Part shown: positions 39,371 through 60,695 of the stretch, in pieces
Layout of the letters: each line of letters begins with the position of its first letter
How positions within the stretch are numbered: position 1 is the stretch's first letter
Assembly: GCA_028753945.1 (NCBI GenBank)
Contig: JAPNXP010000008.1
Span: 1,364,001-1,428,000, forward strand
From: Hexactinellida sp. DTS-2022
Taxonomy: Eukaryota > Porifera > Hexactinellida
Length of the DNA: 64,000 bases
Reading direction: 5' to 3'
Program-made: the position numbers and the translations under genes
Notes under the pieces: generated by a model
The model's input: the letters and a program-made list of their open reading frames with translations, nothing else
Told to the model about the DNA's origin: nothing
The model's database searches: none

Positions 39371-40638
39371 AGGAATCGTTCTTAGACATTGAGAATATGT
39401 TATTGAAAAGATCATATATATTGAAAGTGAATGCGTAGGAATGCATGTACATACGTAGTCTGTATCCATGCGCGGCGCCAAGTTTTTCGAACTGGGTGGC
39501 AGAGGGGGCTAACCAATTTTTCAGGGGGCAGCTTTTCCACCCGTGTGAATTTATCTAAACACTATGGACTGGAGCTACGATAAATTTGTCATACTTACAA
39601 ACTATCCAAAGATATCCGGATTTCATCCAATATCCAAGGGATTTTTTGAAAATATATTTGCTAATATTTCCGTTAATAAATAAGCATTTTATGTACAAAT
39701 AATATTATTCTTGAAGAAATAATTATCACAAATACTTCAAGAGGACTTATAGATGTCCATTTCCAGGTATTTAGCAATGAAAATCCTGGGAATCCCCGTC
39801 AACCTTAAGAAAAATAACTTGGAATTATCAAAGAAACTGAAAAAACTGGTTAGATACGGTTCATCCAAACGGTAAAATATCGGAGTTCGCATGTAAACAG
39901 TAAATGGTGTAAACGGTAATTATAAGCGTATACAAGCCACTCCCAATTTATACCTGCCAACACCAGGGGATTTACCCATGGTCCACCCGTCAGATGCGTA
40001 TTTACTCCACTGGACTCACAAACTCAGTATATCACTTCTGACAGTGACTAAGATCTGTATTTAGTATTAAAAAGTATTTCAATTACCGCTATTATTGTTA
40101 TTTTCACCATTTGGGACCAAACCATTTTATGAGTTTTCGAGAATATCACATGTTCATGTTGTCACAATTTATTTGTTAAAGTCGGTTGATAATCGTGTTA
40201 GGGCTGTTGCATGATATTTTGAGACGCGTGAGATTCTGAGACATTGTATTAGCAAACCATGGATGTGCTATTATAAATTATACAGTGATATTTTGAGACA
40301 CTATAAAAGGAATTTTTGGCTTATTTTTACTTTTTATTATGAATTTAATTCAAGAATGAGACGCGTGAGATTTTGAGACTTTCTATTAGCATACCATGGA
40401 TGTGCTATTAGAATTTATACAGTGATATTTTGAGACACTACTATAAAAGTAATTTTTGGCTTATTTACTTTTTATTATGAATTTAAGAAACTATGATTTT
40501 GAGATCATAATATATAGATAAACCCTATACTATTATCAAATTAATTAACTATATAAGAAATTTAATATATACATTAACTTAATTAATTGTCTTATTCATT
40601 TACCACAAACAAACAATCAAATCCTTACTTATTTTGAA

Positions 40639-40785
40639 ATGAATCCAAATGAATATGACGAAATCATTCACTTTATTCGCGAAGAAAAATATTCTGAAGC
40701 ATCTCAAGCTTCACGTCAGACAAAATGGAGTTACAAAAGAAGATTGTCTTCCTATTTTATTGGAGATACCAACAGACTTTTCAAG
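40639..40785 (+). pseudogene. Ginger integrase, first coding exon
   Basis: ATG-initiated 49-codon exon, MNPNEYDEIIHFIREEKYSE then ASQASRQTKWSYKRRLSSYF, ending FK|GTAATA. The start lies about 80 bp inside the left inverted arm. This N-terminal segment precedes the zinc-binding domain, as in many Ginger/GIN-like integrases. Intact frame; spliced to 40857. Confidence 0.75.
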
Positions 40786-40856
40786 GTAATATTGGCTTCC
40801 TTATTCCCCTAGACCATTTTTAAATATCCCATGGTTTAATTGAATTCTCCCTTTAG

Positions 40857-41029
40857 AGAGTAAAAGTGGAAGGCACAGAAACAGATTTGGCAGTTCCATT
40901 GCAGTCTGAGTTGGACAGCATTTATGAGAAGTTCTATGACGAAGTCGGTCATCCCGGAATAAATACGACCCTACATTCAGTTCAGCAAAGATACACATGG
41001 GCAGGCGTTTCCCAAGACGTTAAGAATAT
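40857..41029 (+). pseudogene. Ginger integrase, H2C2 zinc-binding exon
   Basis: After CTTTAG the frame reads RVKVEGTETDLAVPLQSELD then SIYEKFYDEVGHPGINTTLH and SVQQRYTWAGVSQDVKNM, then a GTGAG donor. GHPG and the W-x-G pattern are the first half of the integrase H2C2 finger (one His visible; the C-x2-C half should be in the next exon, which was not found). The finger aids multimerisation and DNA binding in integrases. Confidence 0.87.
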
Positions 41030-41069
41030 GTGAGTTTAATTTTTCTGTATTACTTTCTTAGGTAGCACG

Positions 41070-41542
41070 CAGGGACGTTGCCAGGATTTTTCACCTAGGG
41101 GGGACACAGAAATTTCCAGGGGGGGCAAACATTATATTGGTGTTAGATCTAGCAGTTGACGTTACCAAAAACTATGCGATAAAGATGAAGCTTTCTAGTT
41201 TAATGTACTGCAAAGTATGAAAATGCTTTGGTTAGTGTAATTCGTTTCAATATACGTAAGTGTAGATTTACATTTCAGACGAGCGAGCGAAGCGAGCGAT
41301 AAAAATTTTTGAGGTGTTTAGAGTTCTTGACCAATGTACAGGGGAAAATTGGAGCCTCGTACAGGTATATGACTCAAATATATTGGAAAATGTGAACTCA
41401 TTAAATTGAATTCAATAGTATCAATGAATCAGAGAAATTAATAGTTTAATATTTTTTACCAGGGGGGGGCATTGCCCCGGGCGAGGATTCCTACCAGGGG
41501 GGGGGCATTGCCCCCTATGCCCTCCCCGTGGCGACGTCCCTG
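41070..41542. mobile_element. hAT-type MITE in Ginger, TSD (G/A)TAGCACG
   Basis: 473 bp, ends CAGGGACGTTGCCAGG and CAGGGACGTCGCCACGGGG (inverted). Flanks GTAGCACG and ATAGCACG. GCGAGCGAAGCGAGCG tract and G-runs inside. Confidence 0.87.
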
Positions 41543-41770
41543 ATAGCACGTGGTTCGGTCATGGCCGGACCACTTGCCATTTACAGTAACATTATTATAA
41601 AGGATAGTCCATCTTTTGTCCGGACCACTTCTGTATTTTATTAATACTTTATAAAAATTTCCTACCTATCTCGTTTCAGTTGAACATTCTAAACAACTGA
41701 ATTTTATTCCTGTATTACAATATACATCTCGTTTGTGTAATGAATCTGAATTAAACTACTCTCAAACAAG

Positions 41771-42146
41771 GTTGTTTGATTTAAATCAAGTGATTTTAAT
41801 CATTGATTTAAATCATGATTTGAATCAAAAATCTGATTTTAATCAAAGAAGTATGATTTAAATCAAAAAAGTCGGACTTTTTTGATTTAAATAAGATTTT
41901 TTAAGTCTATTATTTTTTGCGAAAAGAAAAGAAATACATTGATAATGAGTCAAATTACATTGATAATGAGTCATTAACAATGTAATTAATCTATTAGCCA
42001 AATAATATACGCCAGTGTGATATAGATTGCAAAAAAAAATCAATTAGAATCAAAATTCTGATTTAAATCAAAAAAATCTGATTCAAATCAAAAAAATCGA
42101 ATGTTTTTGATTTTTTGAAAAAATCACGATTTTTATCAACCCTGCA
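41771..42146. mobile_element. hAT-type MITE of GATTTAAATCA words in Ginger
   Basis: Ends CAAGGTTGTTTGATTTAAAT and CAGGGTTGATAAAAATCGTG (inverted). The flanks share TCTCAAA, offset by two bases. Filled with TGATTTAAATCA words. Together with 41070-41542 it occupies the place where the integrase catalytic core should be. Confidence 0.8.
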
Positions 42147-42318
42147 GTCTCAAATGACTTTATCTTGTAATATAATTATAAATATCATAAAATTATGATT
42201 TAAAGTCATGTTTATCCAATAATTATCCATGAAGTGGCATCTGTGTCTATGTCACGTGCTACTTGTGGGACAAGTGGCACATAGGGAAATGTGGCTGTAT
42301 CTCAGTGGAAAATAATAG

Positions 42319-43215
42319 TCGAAGCGCACAACAAGATTCTGAAACAGTTAGTATTTTGTAATATAATTTTAAGACCCATTTACGAATTATCCATATAGAA
42401 AATTGATTAAAATGGAGAGCCAGATAGGGGATCATTGGTCCAAACTGCTCAAACAAGCTGTGCTTGCAATGAACTTCTGCAAGAAAAGATCCCTCGGACA
42501 AACTCCATTCAAGGTTATGTGGGAAAGAGAGTCCCGGCATCAAGATCTCTTGTCCACCATTAACGACCTGCATCCAACGATGAGGAAGACTTTGATTTGG
42601 AAGAATCGATTTTCTCAGAACTCACAGATCCACTAGAATCGACGATATCGAAGATATAAACGACATCTTTTGCCCACCTCCTGATAATCCCCTCGAAGCA
42701 GTTAGCAACATCGATGAATCTCGAACTTCTACACAGCAATCAGCTATGGACTGCATCAATTTTGAACAACTCAAGCAGAAGATACAATATGATAAGAAAG
42801 TTAATTAATTAATTAATAAGTTATCACTAATCGGTTAGTTGTACTGATGACGATATTAAATTCATACATAACACACAGTCTATCTTGTTACTAATGTTCG
42901 ATTCATTCTTTCGATTATAATTATTTTCATAATTATTCTCTCTGTAATTAGTGAATCTCTAAAGAAGGATGATAAGATAATCTATACCAACATGCCCAAA
43001 CTAAAACACATGCCCAAAACAAAGAAGCAAACGAAACATCTCGGGCCTTACACGGTGTCGAAAGCAACATAAAGCCATGTTACAATTTCTAAAACAGAAT
43101 TAGGAACGAAGAAGGACAAAAAGATTCCAATCCATATCACAAGACCTTACTTCGAAAGATCCTCTAGTCCCAATAATACTAAGAAGAAAGCTAGCATCGG
43201 AATCAACACCTCACA
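42319..43215 (+). pseudogene. Ginger integrase: end of DDE core and GPY/F domain
   Basis: Exon 42319-42350 reads EAHNKILKQL then GTATTT; the E is the likely third catalytic residue. Exon from 42399: MESQIGDHWSKLLKQAVLAM then SLGQTPFKVMWERES, the usual end of the core. A frameshift near 42600 precedes an acidic linker, CPPPDNPLEAVSNIDESRTS and onward. A later exon at about 42990-43215 reads KKQTKHLGPYTVSKAT, a stop, SHVTISKTELGTKKDKKIPI and HITRPYFERS: the GPY/F chromatin-binding module found in Ginger1 and Ty3/gypsy integrases. The first two catalytic Asp residues are absent. Confidence 0.8.
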
Positions 43216-43292
43216 GGTAAATTCATTGTGATTGAGTTGTTATTTAAAAGATAAAATAGTGTTAATTAATTAATAGTAAATATTCCTTTTTT

Positions 43293-44218
43293 AGATGTAC
43301 CAGAATCTTTTCGGATTTTCTACGGAATCTATATTTCAACAACTTAATAACTTAAAAGTAAGGTTCCGTTTTCACCTATACTGTCTAATTCATTGAGTGT
43401 TATTTTTATTGACACCTATTGTTATTTTCGCTTTACATCTTCAATTGACGTCAATCCGAATATTTGTAACATCCAATAATAATATTCTTACAATGTTGTC
43501 ATTTGTAGGAATCCTAATGCAGAATATCGTGGGCAGACCTTCATGACTCTATGAAGAGCTGCACCACTTGTTATACAAAGCGCACAACTACACTCCCAAC
43601 ACGATGTTATTCGGTATGTGGATGGTGGAAAAGAAGAGGAAGTTGTAAGTTAACAATGATTCATACGATAACTACAAATTATCATTTTATCCATTTATTG
43701 TAGAAGAGAGATATTATGGAGATTATACTAGGATGGACAACAGATCTCTACCCCACCCAGCTATACAGATACCCAACGTGCTAGATACATACACTAAGTA
43801 CTGTATTTCGTGGTAAGTTAAAATAATCTAACAATACACTCATACAACTCAAATTCAGTTAAATTAATATACATATTTGTTCAGTCTATACGTACCTTCG
43901 AAAGTAGGCTATAACATTAGAATTATTCTTTTATTAATTAAATTGTAAACAAATTAATATTTAGGGAATGCAGTATCTAAACACAATGCTAAGGGAATCA
44001 TTTCACGACGCAGTTCCGCTCCGTAATCCATACGACACACCGATGGACCCAAGGATCAATGTGAGACCTGAAAATTGGCAGCGAAGTAAATGTGATATAT
44101 ATATATGTTGGGGATATCATTTGAATCAGTTTGCAGACAACCATATATTAGCGTTGAGAAGTTACTTAGCGGTTTTGAACCTGGGAAACGGAACATATCG
44201 AAGGAGATGGTAATTGTC
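43293..44218 (+). pseudogene. Downstream Ginger exons of unknown domain
   Basis: Several AG...GT-bounded open pieces: YQNLFGFSTESIFQQLNNLK (about 43295-43361); a piece at about 43530-43645 with YEELHHLLYKAHNYTPNTML; a piece ending CISW|GTAAGT at about 43710-43812 with RYYGDYTRMDNRSLPHPAIQ; and 43967-44213, starting GMQYLNTMLRESFHDAVPLR with NVRPENWQRSKCD. They look like consecutive exons of one protein between GPY/F and the OTU-like part. One in-frame stop in the second piece. I do not recognise the domain. Confidence 0.55.
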
Positions 44219-44339
44219 TATTTCAATGCATATCCAAATTAGTTACTGGGAGTGAAACCAACCACCTACAAGCTACAGCTTCGTTCTATCATTATCGTCA
44301 GTGAAGGAACAAGGAAACTAGGATGGTATTTTAAAACCA

Positions 44340-44627
44340 AACAAATTACACCGTGTGAATACCTTACCAATTACCACACAATTACTTATGAATCGTGAAT
44401 CCGTTTGGGGAACAGATGTGGAAATTTATGCTGCTTCTGCTATTCTTGATGCCGATGTCTACGTTGCCAATAACTTCTAGTCTTCTACAGAACGAAAGAC
44501 TCAGTAATTCGCGAGGTGCGTTGGAGTTTGCACAGAGCTACAGATAACCCTACAGCCATCCTTTATATCCAAAACTACTTCGATCACTATCTACCTGTCG
44601 TATCAATGCTGAACACGAATTACTAGA
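44340..44627 (+). pseudogene. OTU-like cysteine protease domain, C-terminal half
   Basis: The frame reads RVNTLPITTQLLMNRESVWG then TDVEIYAASAILDADVYVAN. After a frame change comes FYRTKDSVIREVRWSLHRAT, then AILYIQNYFDHYLPVVSML. (V)WGTDVEI-A-A-LL--D-YV and the final -HY-PVV are OTU hallmarks; the terminal His is the expected catalytic one. The half with the catalytic Cys (DGNCxF) was not found. OTU proteases cleave ubiquitin, and OTU domains occur in some transposon proteins, including, as I recall, Ginger relatives. Frameshift: inactive. Confidence 0.75.
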
Positions 44628-44689
44628 CTTATGGATTATTTCCAAAATAAATTTCTTCGCCAAAAAGAGAATTTCATTATATCGATTTA

Positions 44690-44785
44690 TTTGACTATAG
44701 TATAGTCAAATATAAGGATGTCCGGACCATTGAACTTCGTTATAAGCCGATTTTTAGCCGACTTGGAGTTCACTGTAATACTGGT
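44690..44785. repeat. Fragment of pogo-like MITE
   Basis: Right end CAGTGAACTCCAAGTCGGCT (inverted, TA flank) and a left portion near a TGACTATAGTATAGTCA palindrome. Incomplete. Confidence 0.4.
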
Positions 44786-45478
44786 TAATTTCATAGTTTT
44801 GAGTAATTTAGTGTAACTTAACCTATTTTCCTTTGAGAGTTTTTTTTGTACACCTGGGAACCACATTATCAGGGCGCATCAATGCGATGCTCATTTTGTT
44901 ATGTCGTTACACACATACGAACGAAGGGTAATTTAATCAAAAATGGGGGACGATTGAATGGCTATAGATGTGCGGTTTCCACTGTATGGCGGCTGTCTGG
45001 GTAAAAGGAGGAGGCCCCAAATAATAATTGGTTAATACAATAAAAACTGATTGAAAAAATAGTTTACCTTTTACTTATCTTATAAATATATGTATATCTC
45101 TTTCTAGACATTCGCCTAGTACATTTAGAAAGTTAATCGTTGTGATTATTTCTATACTCAATAGAATTGGTAGGATAGTAACCATAAGTCGTAAGAAATC
45201 AAGGATTAGATTATTGAAATTCAGGAGAAATTAAAAGGTTTAAACATTTTTAAATCGTTTTATTTCACAACAAATTTTGTATAAAATATTTGTTTATATT
45301 ATTTTGTTATATTATTTTGTTAATCGTAATAGATAAGGTAGTGTTTGCTATTGGCGTAAATGACACTGTATTAGAATTTCGTATGTTGGTGATACAAAGA
45401 TAATAACTACTGTATAAGTAATAGCTAACAAATTTAACTAATTTAAATGTTACTACTTTATTTGCTCTGGTTTCATTT

Positions 45479-45580
45479 TGGGAAGTGGGAAGGGGAGAGG
45501 AGGAGATGAGGTGGAGTGGAGAAGGGAGATTTTGACATTAAGGAGGATGCTACTGGGGAGGAGGAGGGGGTGCTATTGGG
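45479..45580. repeat. Purine-rich (G/A) tract
   Basis: Almost pure purine on the + strand (GGGAAGTGGGAAGGGGAGAG and onward to GGAGGAGGAGGGGG). It lies in the 3' non-coding part of the Ginger-like element; function unknown. The open frame across it is low-complexity. Confidence 0.7.
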
Positions 45581-46884
45581 GGTTTTTATAATATTTTCTG
45601 TATTTAAATTCTTAGTTTATGTATTTATTAGTGTGTTTTATTTAATTAATTTAGTATATTTATTCTGTTTGTTTGTAAAACGTAGTAGTTTTTGTATTAA
45701 AATAAAGTTGTGTCCCTGTAATTGTTAGTATTATAACCATATGCTGAATTGGGAAATTATTAGATTAGGAAAAACTAGTCAAATTAGATATACATTGGAA
45801 ACAGTGTATTATACGGACATTTGTAAATAATACGCTCCTAATCTTGGTCTGATCCAATTTTCATACGCTTAAATCACAAATTAATGTTACGGTATAGGAG
45901 AAGTTTCCAATTTTTCGCGCTCCTAATTAATTTTTCCTAAAATCATCTCCAAAAGGAGCGTCTCGCGATCCTGGATAATTTCCTGATTGGAAATTGGGTT
46001 ACTGGGATAACTTGCTATAATTATCAGTAATTAAGATAATTAAAAAAGGATAAATATTGCAGATAGAATACAAAATATAGTGAGACGTTCAAAACAGGTA
46101 ATCAAGCCAGAAATTGTTATATACCAGTGTCTCGAAACAATATATAGCTATCACATCTATGTCTCTATGGTTTATCTATACTATCGTCTCAAAATTGTAA
46201 GAATCTTAAATTCATAATAAAAAGTTATATTAATAAGTAGAAAATTACTTTTATAGTAGTGTCTCAAAATCTCACGCGTCTCAAAATATCACTGTATAAT
46301 TTGTAATAGCACATCCATGGTTTGCTAATACAATGTCTCAAAATCTCACGCGTCTCAAAATTATATTATTCTGAAATTCATAATAAAAGTAAAATAAGCC
46401 AAAATTTCCTTTTATAGCGTCTCAAAATATCACTGTATAATTTGTAATAGCACATCCATGGTGTATAGAGTGTATCTCATAGGCGTCTCAAAATCTCACG
46501 CGTCTCAAAATATCATCCAACAGGGCTTATATTTGAAAAGGATGTTTACTTTGGGCAGTGGTAAAAAAAATTTCTATGCAACTTTATTGGGGGGGGGGGG
46601 ATACTATTCCAGACATACGGTAACAATATGTATGTTGTCGATGAAATCCGAGCGAGCGCAGTGTGCGTAAAATTTTTAGAGATTCGAAGCTCTAGAAATG
46701 TGTACTGGGGAATGAGTCAAATTCCAAGGAATTCTTCGCATGAGTCCAGGGATTTTCTTGGGCTAAGTTGTCAGATTTGATTGATTTTACATGAGAATAT
46801 CCTAAATCCTGACCCTCCTGTGGGGGTCAGCATTTTAACTAGGGGGTGGGCTGCCCTCCCTCTGGCGCCGCGCCTGACTGTATC

Positions 46885-56758: not shown

Positions 56759-57845
56759 ACTCGTCTTATTGTTATGCAATTTAATATACACTGAATTCAT
56801 TGCATATCAACCACTTTAGTGTGTTTCTATTTGAAACCATATAACATTCTTATAAACCTCAGTGGAAAATCTTCAGTGGAAGGAAGTGCAATGGTGGTCA
56901 GGATCCACAAAAAGGTATGACGAACATACTGAGCGTAATCTACTTTTACACCGATTGGAGCTATAGGACTTGGGTAGGGTTGAATGATTGAGCGCAGTAC
57001 TATGCAATTTCTATGCTCAGCTAATTTATGGTATGCAGGGAGTTTGAAATCGCTGGATAACAAATATTTACGAAACCGTGTGTACTTCCTCTTTCCTATT
57101 TCGAGTAAATCTAGAAGGAATAAAGACTTGTTAAGATCAAGCTCCTTCCTCGGAACATTCCCGAATTGACCGCGACCGTGGAAATTGTCATACTCATTGG
57201 ATTTTGAAACTTTTCGAGTTTCGATAGAATCTTCCTCATTTATTAGGAGCTGTAATGGAAGGGAAGCTATGTTTACCTCTGATGTATTTTCTATTTCCGA
57301 AAGTAATTTAATAGAATCTAAGACGCTTGACAAGCGTGATCGCATCTTCTTCAAGGAAATGTCACTTACATTCTTCTGTATAGAGGAACGATCAATTTCA
57401 AGATCATCCAGAAGGGCAATGCGGGTCTTCTTCTGTTTAGGTAGCAAGGAGAGTTGCGAGTTCCACCACTCTCCCTCACAACTATCCAGACTTTTCTTTG
57501 CTCTTTTGAAAGTGTCACGGATTCTGCGTAGCATTGCATGCAAATAATCTCTTCTTTCTATGTCTAGATCAAGACAATCCTCCAAGTGAGAGAGTGTTTG
57601 ATGACAGTTATAATAATTGTCCTTCAGCAGTCTTGCTAAATCAAGCCGGGACTTGGGAAGTGTTGGACATTCAGCCATTGATTGATTATGAAAAAGAAAC
57701 TTCAATATCTAAATGTAAATGTACTAAATTAATATATTCAATATGTATATCTAACAATGTTATATGGTTTTAAATAGAAACACACTAAAGTGGTTGATAT
57801 GCAATGAATTCAGTGGATATTAAATTGCATAACAATAAGACGAGT
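56759..57845 (-). mobile_element. 1.09 kb unit with 91-bp inverted arms enclosing one intact ORF
   Basis: The left arm (56759-56849) and right arm (57755-57845), both ACTCGTCTTATTGTTATGCA inward, differ at only about two positions. They enclose a single 292-codon minus-strand ORF whose last codons and stop fall inside the left arm. No TSD was detected (TTCCATTT against ATATAGTG). This is either a small transposable element with its own gene, or a gene caught in an inverted duplication. Confidence 0.65.
56827..57705 (-). CDS. Intact 292-aa protein of unknown function
   Basis: Longest ORF in the window and free of damage. The likely start may be the second Met (MAECPTLPKSRLDLARLLKD). Residues about 30-90 are helical and charged (LSHLEDCLDLDIERRDYLHA, MLRRIRDTFKRAKKSLDSCE). 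The middle has KKMRSRLSSVLDSIKLLSEI. The C-terminus has SSDFKLPAYHKLAEHRNC and VRHTFLWILTTIAL. K/R and L rich; no signal peptide or membrane segment is evident. The C-terminal LP-Y-K--- pattern faintly recalls uncharacterised proteins associated with animal transposons, but I cannot name the family. Codon use looks coding and no shadow of a better frame exists. Confidence 0.7.
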   Translation of the reverse strand: MKFLFHNQSMAECPTLPKSRLDLARLLKDNYYNCHQTLSHLEDCLDLDIERRDYLHAMLRRIRDTFKRAKKSLDSCEGEWWNSQLSLLPKQKKTRIALLDDLEIDRSSIQKNVSDISLKKMRSRLSSVLDSIKLLSEIENTSEVNIASLPLQLLINEEDSIETRKVSKSNEYDNFHGRGQFGNVPRKELDLNKSLFLLDLLEIGKRKYTRFRKYLLSSDFKLPAYHKLAEHRNCIVLRSIIQPYPSPIAPIGVKVDYAQYVRHTFLWILTTIALPSTEDFPLRFIRMLYGFK

Positions 57846-59956: not shown

Positions 59957-60695
59957 AGTGATCATTGACAGTGGAACAAAGAAGAGAATGTAAAGCAAAA
60001 ATGCACACGAAAGGGATGGAGATAATCAAGCGTACTAATGACCATCTCCACCCACCTGACGAGCAGGCGGTGATTTTCCAGGAGACCAAGATAGGAATCA
60101 AGAGGAAAGCACGGGACAGTCAGGATAGTTCACACCACATAGTGTGGGAGAGTCTCCTGACGGTATCTGAGGGCACGGCTGCTAAGCTACCCAAGCTGGA
60201 CAGTCTGATAGCTGGCAGCCCCGGTGCAGCCTGCCGAGTCTGGAGGAGCTGAGGAGTTCGTCCTCTACGACTTGGGACCGGAGACGCAGAGGATCCTAAT
60301 CTTCGGAACACAGCGAAACCTGGAGGCTGCGACTGGCGGACTACTGGATGGCTGACGGAACCCTTAAGACGGCTTCCTCCCTCTTCGCTCAGGTGTATGT
60401 GGTGCATGCACTCCGTGGAGGGCCTCATCTTACGAAAGATGGTCACGTGCTGCTGAGTTTGTTCGTGATGCTTCCCAACAAAACGGAGGCTACCTACAGG
60501 AGGATGTGGGATCAGATTCGCCAACTCTGTCCCCTCGCCCATCCGAGGAAGATGCTCTTGGACTTTGAGAAGGCTGCGATAAACAGCTCTGAGGCGGTGT
60601 GGCCGAAAACACTGATCAAGTGCTGCTTCTTCCACCTCACACAGAACGTATGGCGCAAGGTGCAGGCTGTTGGCTTGCAGGCTGCCAATAGCTAG
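59957..60695 (+). pseudogene. FLYWCH/MULE transposase, 5' and central part
   Basis: GC-rich relative to its surroundings. The first frame has ECKAKMHTKGMEIIKRTNDH with HLHPPD: the second half of a FLYWCH finger (C ... H-x-H). Then SLLTVSEGTAAKLPKLDS. A second frame gives AEEFVLYDLGPETQRILIFG. The third (60348-60695) reads DYWMADGTLKTASSLFAQVY, VVHALRGG, LPNKTEATYRRMWDQI, LLDFEKAAINSSEAVWP, then IKCCFFHLTQNVWRKVQAVG, the MULE transposase core with D (ADGT) and D (LDFE) and the C--H motif. Two frameshifts inactivate it, and the 3' end runs into an inverted copy. Confidence 0.9.

Follow-up and report, generated by a model that had tools for sequence, protein, structure and literature searches.

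Ginger1 elements carrying OTU or Ulp1 domains were described in 2010 by Bao, Kapitonov and Jurka (PMC2836005). According to the available portion of that paper, these elements have TGTNR ends, terminal inverted repeats (TIRs) of 40–270 bp, lengths of 2.6–7 kb and at most four introns, come from four species, and are flanked by 4-bp target site duplications (TSDs) that read CCGG in 75% of cases and CCGT/ACGG in 24%. A 4-bp TSD for Ginger1 also appears in the accessible part of a 2023 paper on IS481EU (PMC10045372), and a Ginger1-derived crustacean gene was described in 2026 (PMC12863088), the available text of which mentions neither TSDs nor OTU. Here we analyse a 64,000-nucleotide stretch of a glass sponge genome (Hexactinellida sp. 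DTS-2022, contig JAPNXP010000008.1, positions 1,364,001 to 1,428,000), hereafter the window. We judge from its sequence, with a probability of about 0.93, that positions 40205–46522 hold a Ginger1-like cut-and-paste DNA transposon whose copy in the window is internally deleted and non-autonomous.

Read directly from the sequence, the window copy starts with TGTTG at 40205 and ends with CAACA at 46522, and GGGC lies immediately outside both termini, as the left (40201–40204) and right (46523–46526) TSD, neither with an assigned strand; both features had been proposed in a first-pass annotation of this DNA. Repeat analysis placed the left TIR at 40205–40489 (+ strand, ∼285 bp, with an 84-bp unit repeated at 137-bp spacing) and the right TIR at 46204–46522 (− strand, ∼320 bp). 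The arms are composed of internally repeated units, and the seven main arm pairs (I1–I7) are 88–98% complementary; the earlier description of inverted arms stands, with a length (∼350 bp) that was slightly overstated. The GC content of the window is 30–40% in 4-kb steps.

The coding capacity of the element is best seen in a related copy, L048, in which ten exons separated by nine GT-AG introns encode an uninterrupted 798-residue protein with the domain order H2C2, DDE core, GPY, linker and full OTU. Pfam analysis of these joined exons, the check that the first-pass annotation had suggested, matched Integrase_H2C2 (3.9e-17), rve (8.1e-10) and OTU (6.1e-10, profile positions 2–128 of 128). The catalytic residues are spaced D-58-D-35-E, the motif LGPYTV is present, and exon 1 contains YP plus more aromatic residues, which may correspond to the YPYY motif that precedes the zinc finger in Ginger1. 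The linker exons returned no convincing Pfam match. This open ten-exon gene supports the proposal that the OTU part and the then unassigned exons at 43.3–44.2 kb belong to one protein, and the original observation as a whole (both ends, long inverted repeats, a TSD, and exons for H2C2, GPY/F and OTU) is confirmed.

Comparison of family A, to which the window element belongs, with family B gave ∼63% identity in the OTU domain and ∼88% in the integrase exon. Identity at codon positions 1, 2 and 3 was 92, 96 and 68% in exon 3, 83, 81 and 60% in exon 5, and 76, 80 and 59% in exon 10. Because third positions are only 59–68% identical, as against 76–96% at first and second positions, we infer that selection acted at the protein level on integrase, linker and OTU alike.

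The motifs GDGNC and HY are unchanged in all six aligned OTU sequences (three from family A, two from family B and the outside protein P0033), and we take them to supply the catalytic Cys, His and Asp, roles predicted from sequence. OTUD1 was the only sequence match of solved structure at E ≤ 0.01 (E = 0.0023). For an AlphaFold2 model built from six sequences, the leading Foldseek matches are OTU domains with probabilities near 1. A tblastn search of phage records with the OTU sequence found no match. OTU domains are numerous in this genome (440 first-look candidates, of which 150 were scored), and several open frames of ∼1260 residues have equal OTU scores, suggesting other OTU-bearing repeats.

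We searched the whole 112.4-Mb assembly (18 contigs) for further copies. A 24-base end pattern matched 175 places with at most one mismatch, versus none for the reversed control, and the element is therefore far above chance. Genome-wide, GNNC precedes 119 of 128 exact element ends, where 8 would be expected with equal base frequencies. We read 29 copies: that in the window, 20 regions, and 8 picked because both exact ends were listed together with an OTU match. Both ends could be located in 18 of them; the other 11, all among the 20 regions, had no right end inside the fetched stretch, and we did not accept the loose matches seen in L026 and L029. A perfect 4-bp TSD flanks 15 of the 18 two-ended copies and is GNNC every time, reading GGGC, GGCC, GGTC (three times), GATC and GACC in a first set and GAAC, GTAC, GACC, GGCC, GTAC, GGCC, GGCC and GGCC in a second. 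Among the 100 listed of the 119 GNNC ends, 28 pairs face inward within 20 kb, and their TSDs agree in 27, in a list that contains GNNC ends only. Family B, which starts TGTTGTGTGG, follows the same rule as far as its left ends go, the two left flanks reading GACC and GATC. The ends and the 4-bp TSD assigned to the window copy thus recur at other loci, and the ends are consistent rather than shifting from copy to copy. Identity between copies reaches 99.5%, and such near-identical sequences point to recent movement.

Two other explanations were weighed. It is improbable that the OTU exons form a gene of their own, or a host gene captured beside the integrase, and do not belong to the transposase: the genome is rich in OTU sequences and the linker exons lack a convincing Pfam match, as this explanation would allow, but a single open frame crosses all ten exons in L048, OTU sequence is kept in 17 of the 18 two-ended copies, integrase and OTU matches lie close together on one strand in divergent families (C4:2704792/2702270 and C12:602019/598601), and published Ginger1 has the same plan. 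Less probable still is a decayed gypsy long terminal repeat (LTR) retrotransposon, its terminal repeats and integrase mistaken for those of a DNA transposon; despite the gypsy-like integrase (H2C2, rve, GPY), the TG...CA ends and a reverse transcriptase (RT) domain in 24 of the 32 outside integrase homologues (20–31% identity), the terminal repeats are inverted rather than direct, nine introns interrupt the gene, which also encodes an OTU domain, the RT-bearing proteins align with the copies in the integrase part only, and the 18 two-ended copies gave no RT match. All 32 homologues match these copies only in approximately the first 3 kb, where exons 1–6 sit; in L040 the gene is reversed relative to the end used and the match positions are mirrored. 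In the 18 two-ended copies no LTR or RT sequence was found linked to the integrase, and the Ginger-like identity first suggested for this locus is supported by the inverted TGTTG...CAACA ends, the 4-bp TSDs and the integrase-OTU gene.

Several observations weigh against the Ginger1-like reading. Nine of the 128 exact ends lack a preceding GNNC, and three of the 18 TSDs are off by one base (GTAC/TTAC in L022, GTCC/GTGC in L038 and GAAC/GAAA in L040). The expectation that other copies carry the OTU exons holds for 17 of the 18, and fails in L021, from which OTU is absent, with L035 retaining 59%. The OTU model is mediocre (mean predicted local distance difference test score 62), and its Foldseek E-values are all at least 0.0019, none reaching 0.001. 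The gene model is derived from sequence, its splice sites having been chosen manually to fit GT/AG and the reading frame, and for those around intron 5 other choices exist. Among the homologues returned for the transposase none is named Ginger1, and the likeness to Ginger1 is judged from domain plan, ends and TSD length. The GNNC TSD also departs from CCGG/CCGT, which the available text of PMC2836005 calls highly specific. Finally, the defects that the window copy has in common with L021, described below, are presumed to be shared by descent.

For a Ginger1-like transposon, we envisage that the spliced transposase would bind the inverted ends and excise the element, which would then be joined at GNNC sites with a 4-bp stagger. 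The OTU domain may trim ubiquitin off the transposase itself or off host repair or chromatin factors, protecting the transposition complex; a comparable role for OTU in transposition has already been proposed (PMC2836005, in the part available).

The gene in the window copy lies on the + strand and is broken. Exon 1 (40639–40785; 94% identical to exon 1 of L041) holds the start Met and the region ahead of the zinc finger, and exon 2 (40857–41024) holds the first half of the H2C2 finger, which was borne out by Pfam (PF17921, 5.6e-9). At 42316–42400 a deletion has removed exons 3 and 4 (0% covered), which bear all three catalytic residues; L023 is ∼630 bp longer here. Since these exons carry the D, D and E, the catalytic residues are absent from the window copy, and of the end of a DDE core noted earlier only the stretch after the E is present. 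It lies in exon 5 (42400–42799), which also encodes linker and contains two frame changes. Exon 6 (42965–43216) contains the predicted GPY/F motif, exon 7 (43295–43357) encodes 21 residues at 95% identity, and exons 8 (43511–43644) and 9 (43704–43794) are frameshifted. Exon 10 (43966–44645) encodes a broken OTU domain with GDGNC at 44200 and HY at 44582. What had been taken for an OTU-like C-terminal half is indeed OTU, and is not a half: 94% of the exon is covered, interrupted by frame changes and stops (Pfam OTU 0.041, under the cut-off), and its final residues are gone together with a conserved block that follows in relatives.

Copy comparison also revealed two nested insertions, neither with an assigned strand. 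Insertion 1 (41070–41542) has ends CAGGGACGT...ACGTCCCTG and (G/A)TAGCACG flanks, an 8-bp near-identical pair, and similar short pieces occur outside the copy near 46649 and 46852; we presume that it is perhaps a short hAT-like element. Insertion 2 (41767–42147) has TCTCAAA flanks and is rich in ATTTAAATCA repeats. L021 has the same catalytic deletion and the same insertion 1, lacks insertion 2, and has a different TSD (GGCC, as against GGGC in the window copy). On the simplest reading, the deletion would be older than the arrival of either copy at its present site, and the window copy and L021 would each have moved without an enzyme of their own. Because the deletion and a nested insertion are shared with L021 at another site, the window copy was probably mobilised in trans; having retained its ends, it could have been moved by enzyme from intact copies.

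The block that follows the OTU stop codon in relatives is unusually invariant. In family A it spans 182 bp directly after the stop (L048:4079–4260), with 175 of them aligning at 96% to family B (L049:4819–4993). Across families A and B and four more places (L051–L054; at least three families, with OTU domains 41–56% identical to that of family A), a core of ∼135–140 bp is nearly invariant while its flanks hardly align. The core and its right edge are 96.8% identical between A and B (149 of 154), as against 59–68% at third codon positions of the exons. A 22-base piece of the block matched 184 genome places with at most two mismatches, versus none for the control. Of 81 exact places listed, 63 adjoin an OTU match, 2 of the other 18 are near an integrase match, and 16 have neither nearby; the OTU and integrase searches behind this count scored 150 of 843 and 150 of 985 candidates, and some places may lie outside Ginger elements. 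At least one place of the block, C4:1864364, has no OTU match among the scored candidates.

The block gave no Rfam match at E up to 1 and no tRNA, and its folding energy is not unusual (z-score −1.05, one sequence). All six translated block sequences share one open frame (five families, the C4 and C11 sequences being alike). A coding role was set aside, as changes fall at all codon positions and a start codon is missing there in family B. In the old copy L028 the block has decayed about as much as the rest (91.7% versus 94.3% identity elsewhere), which speaks against a mutation cold spot and against gene conversion among all copies. We tentatively propose, as a suggestion somewhat short of even odds, that the OTU-Ginger lineage carries a nucleotide module preserved nearly base for base across families whose OTU domains are 41–63% identical; it may be a cis-acting element for mobility (protein or RNA binding, 3′ processing, or escape from silencing) or a module exchanged between families. 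A captured host piece may be a further origin.

Two other open frames lie downstream in the window. One, at 56830–57708 on the − strand, encodes 293 residues and has 31 relatives, the five named ones all from Oopsacas minuta with labels that include P-element transposase and V(D)J recombination-activating protein. The other, at 60300–60695 on the + strand, encodes 131 residues and resembles what we take to be a fragment of a Mutator-like element (MULE)-type transposase.

The transposase matches two Oopsacas minuta proteins best, and the other named matches, from a shrimp, a demosponge and a fish, are 26–29% identical. The O. minuta protein P0001 (LOD99_1838), which has 29 member sequences, is 38% identical to the present protein over the latter's residues 1–527, which take in the integrase and some of the linker. 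P0001 has no Pfam OTU match, and its last 180 residues cannot be aligned with the present protein. Its residues 547–726 form a different C terminus bearing NTCSIDN, perhaps another protease. Compared by description only, Ginger2/TDD and IS3EU/GingerRoot are alike in having an integrase-like transposase and TIRs; in the accessible parts of PMC2836005 and PMC10045372, Ginger2 is treated as a group of its own, with TSDs of 4–5 bp, and the TSDs of GingerRoot are 6 bp long and its ends mostly TA..TA. The word Ginger is absent from the available text of two glass sponge genome papers (PMC10282587 and PMC10280926), and the accessible literature on Ginger1 with Porifera offered nothing beyond mere co-occurrence of the two words.

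The closest resemblance is to Ginger1: a single transposase combining H2C2, DDE core, GPY/F and a C-terminal OTU, together with TGTNR ends (here TGTTG), long TIRs, 4-bp TSDs, a size within 2.6–7 kb and an animal host. As integrase-OTU Ginger1 elements were published in 2010, this kind of element was already known, and the fusion itself is not new. Our analysis extends integrase-OTU transposons to a glass sponge and indicates that their target can be GNNC, not only CCGG. That OTU appears to have been selected at the protein level alongside the integrase lends support to the idea, already published, that ubiquitin handling is part of transposition, and the invariant block provides a concrete handle on what else these elements need. 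Relative to the available descriptions of Ginger1, the TIRs (∼285–320 bp) are slightly longer than 40–270 bp, and three features set the present lineage apart: a GNNC TSD in place of CCGG or CCGT/ACGG, nine introns where at most four were reported, and a glass sponge host outside the four published species.

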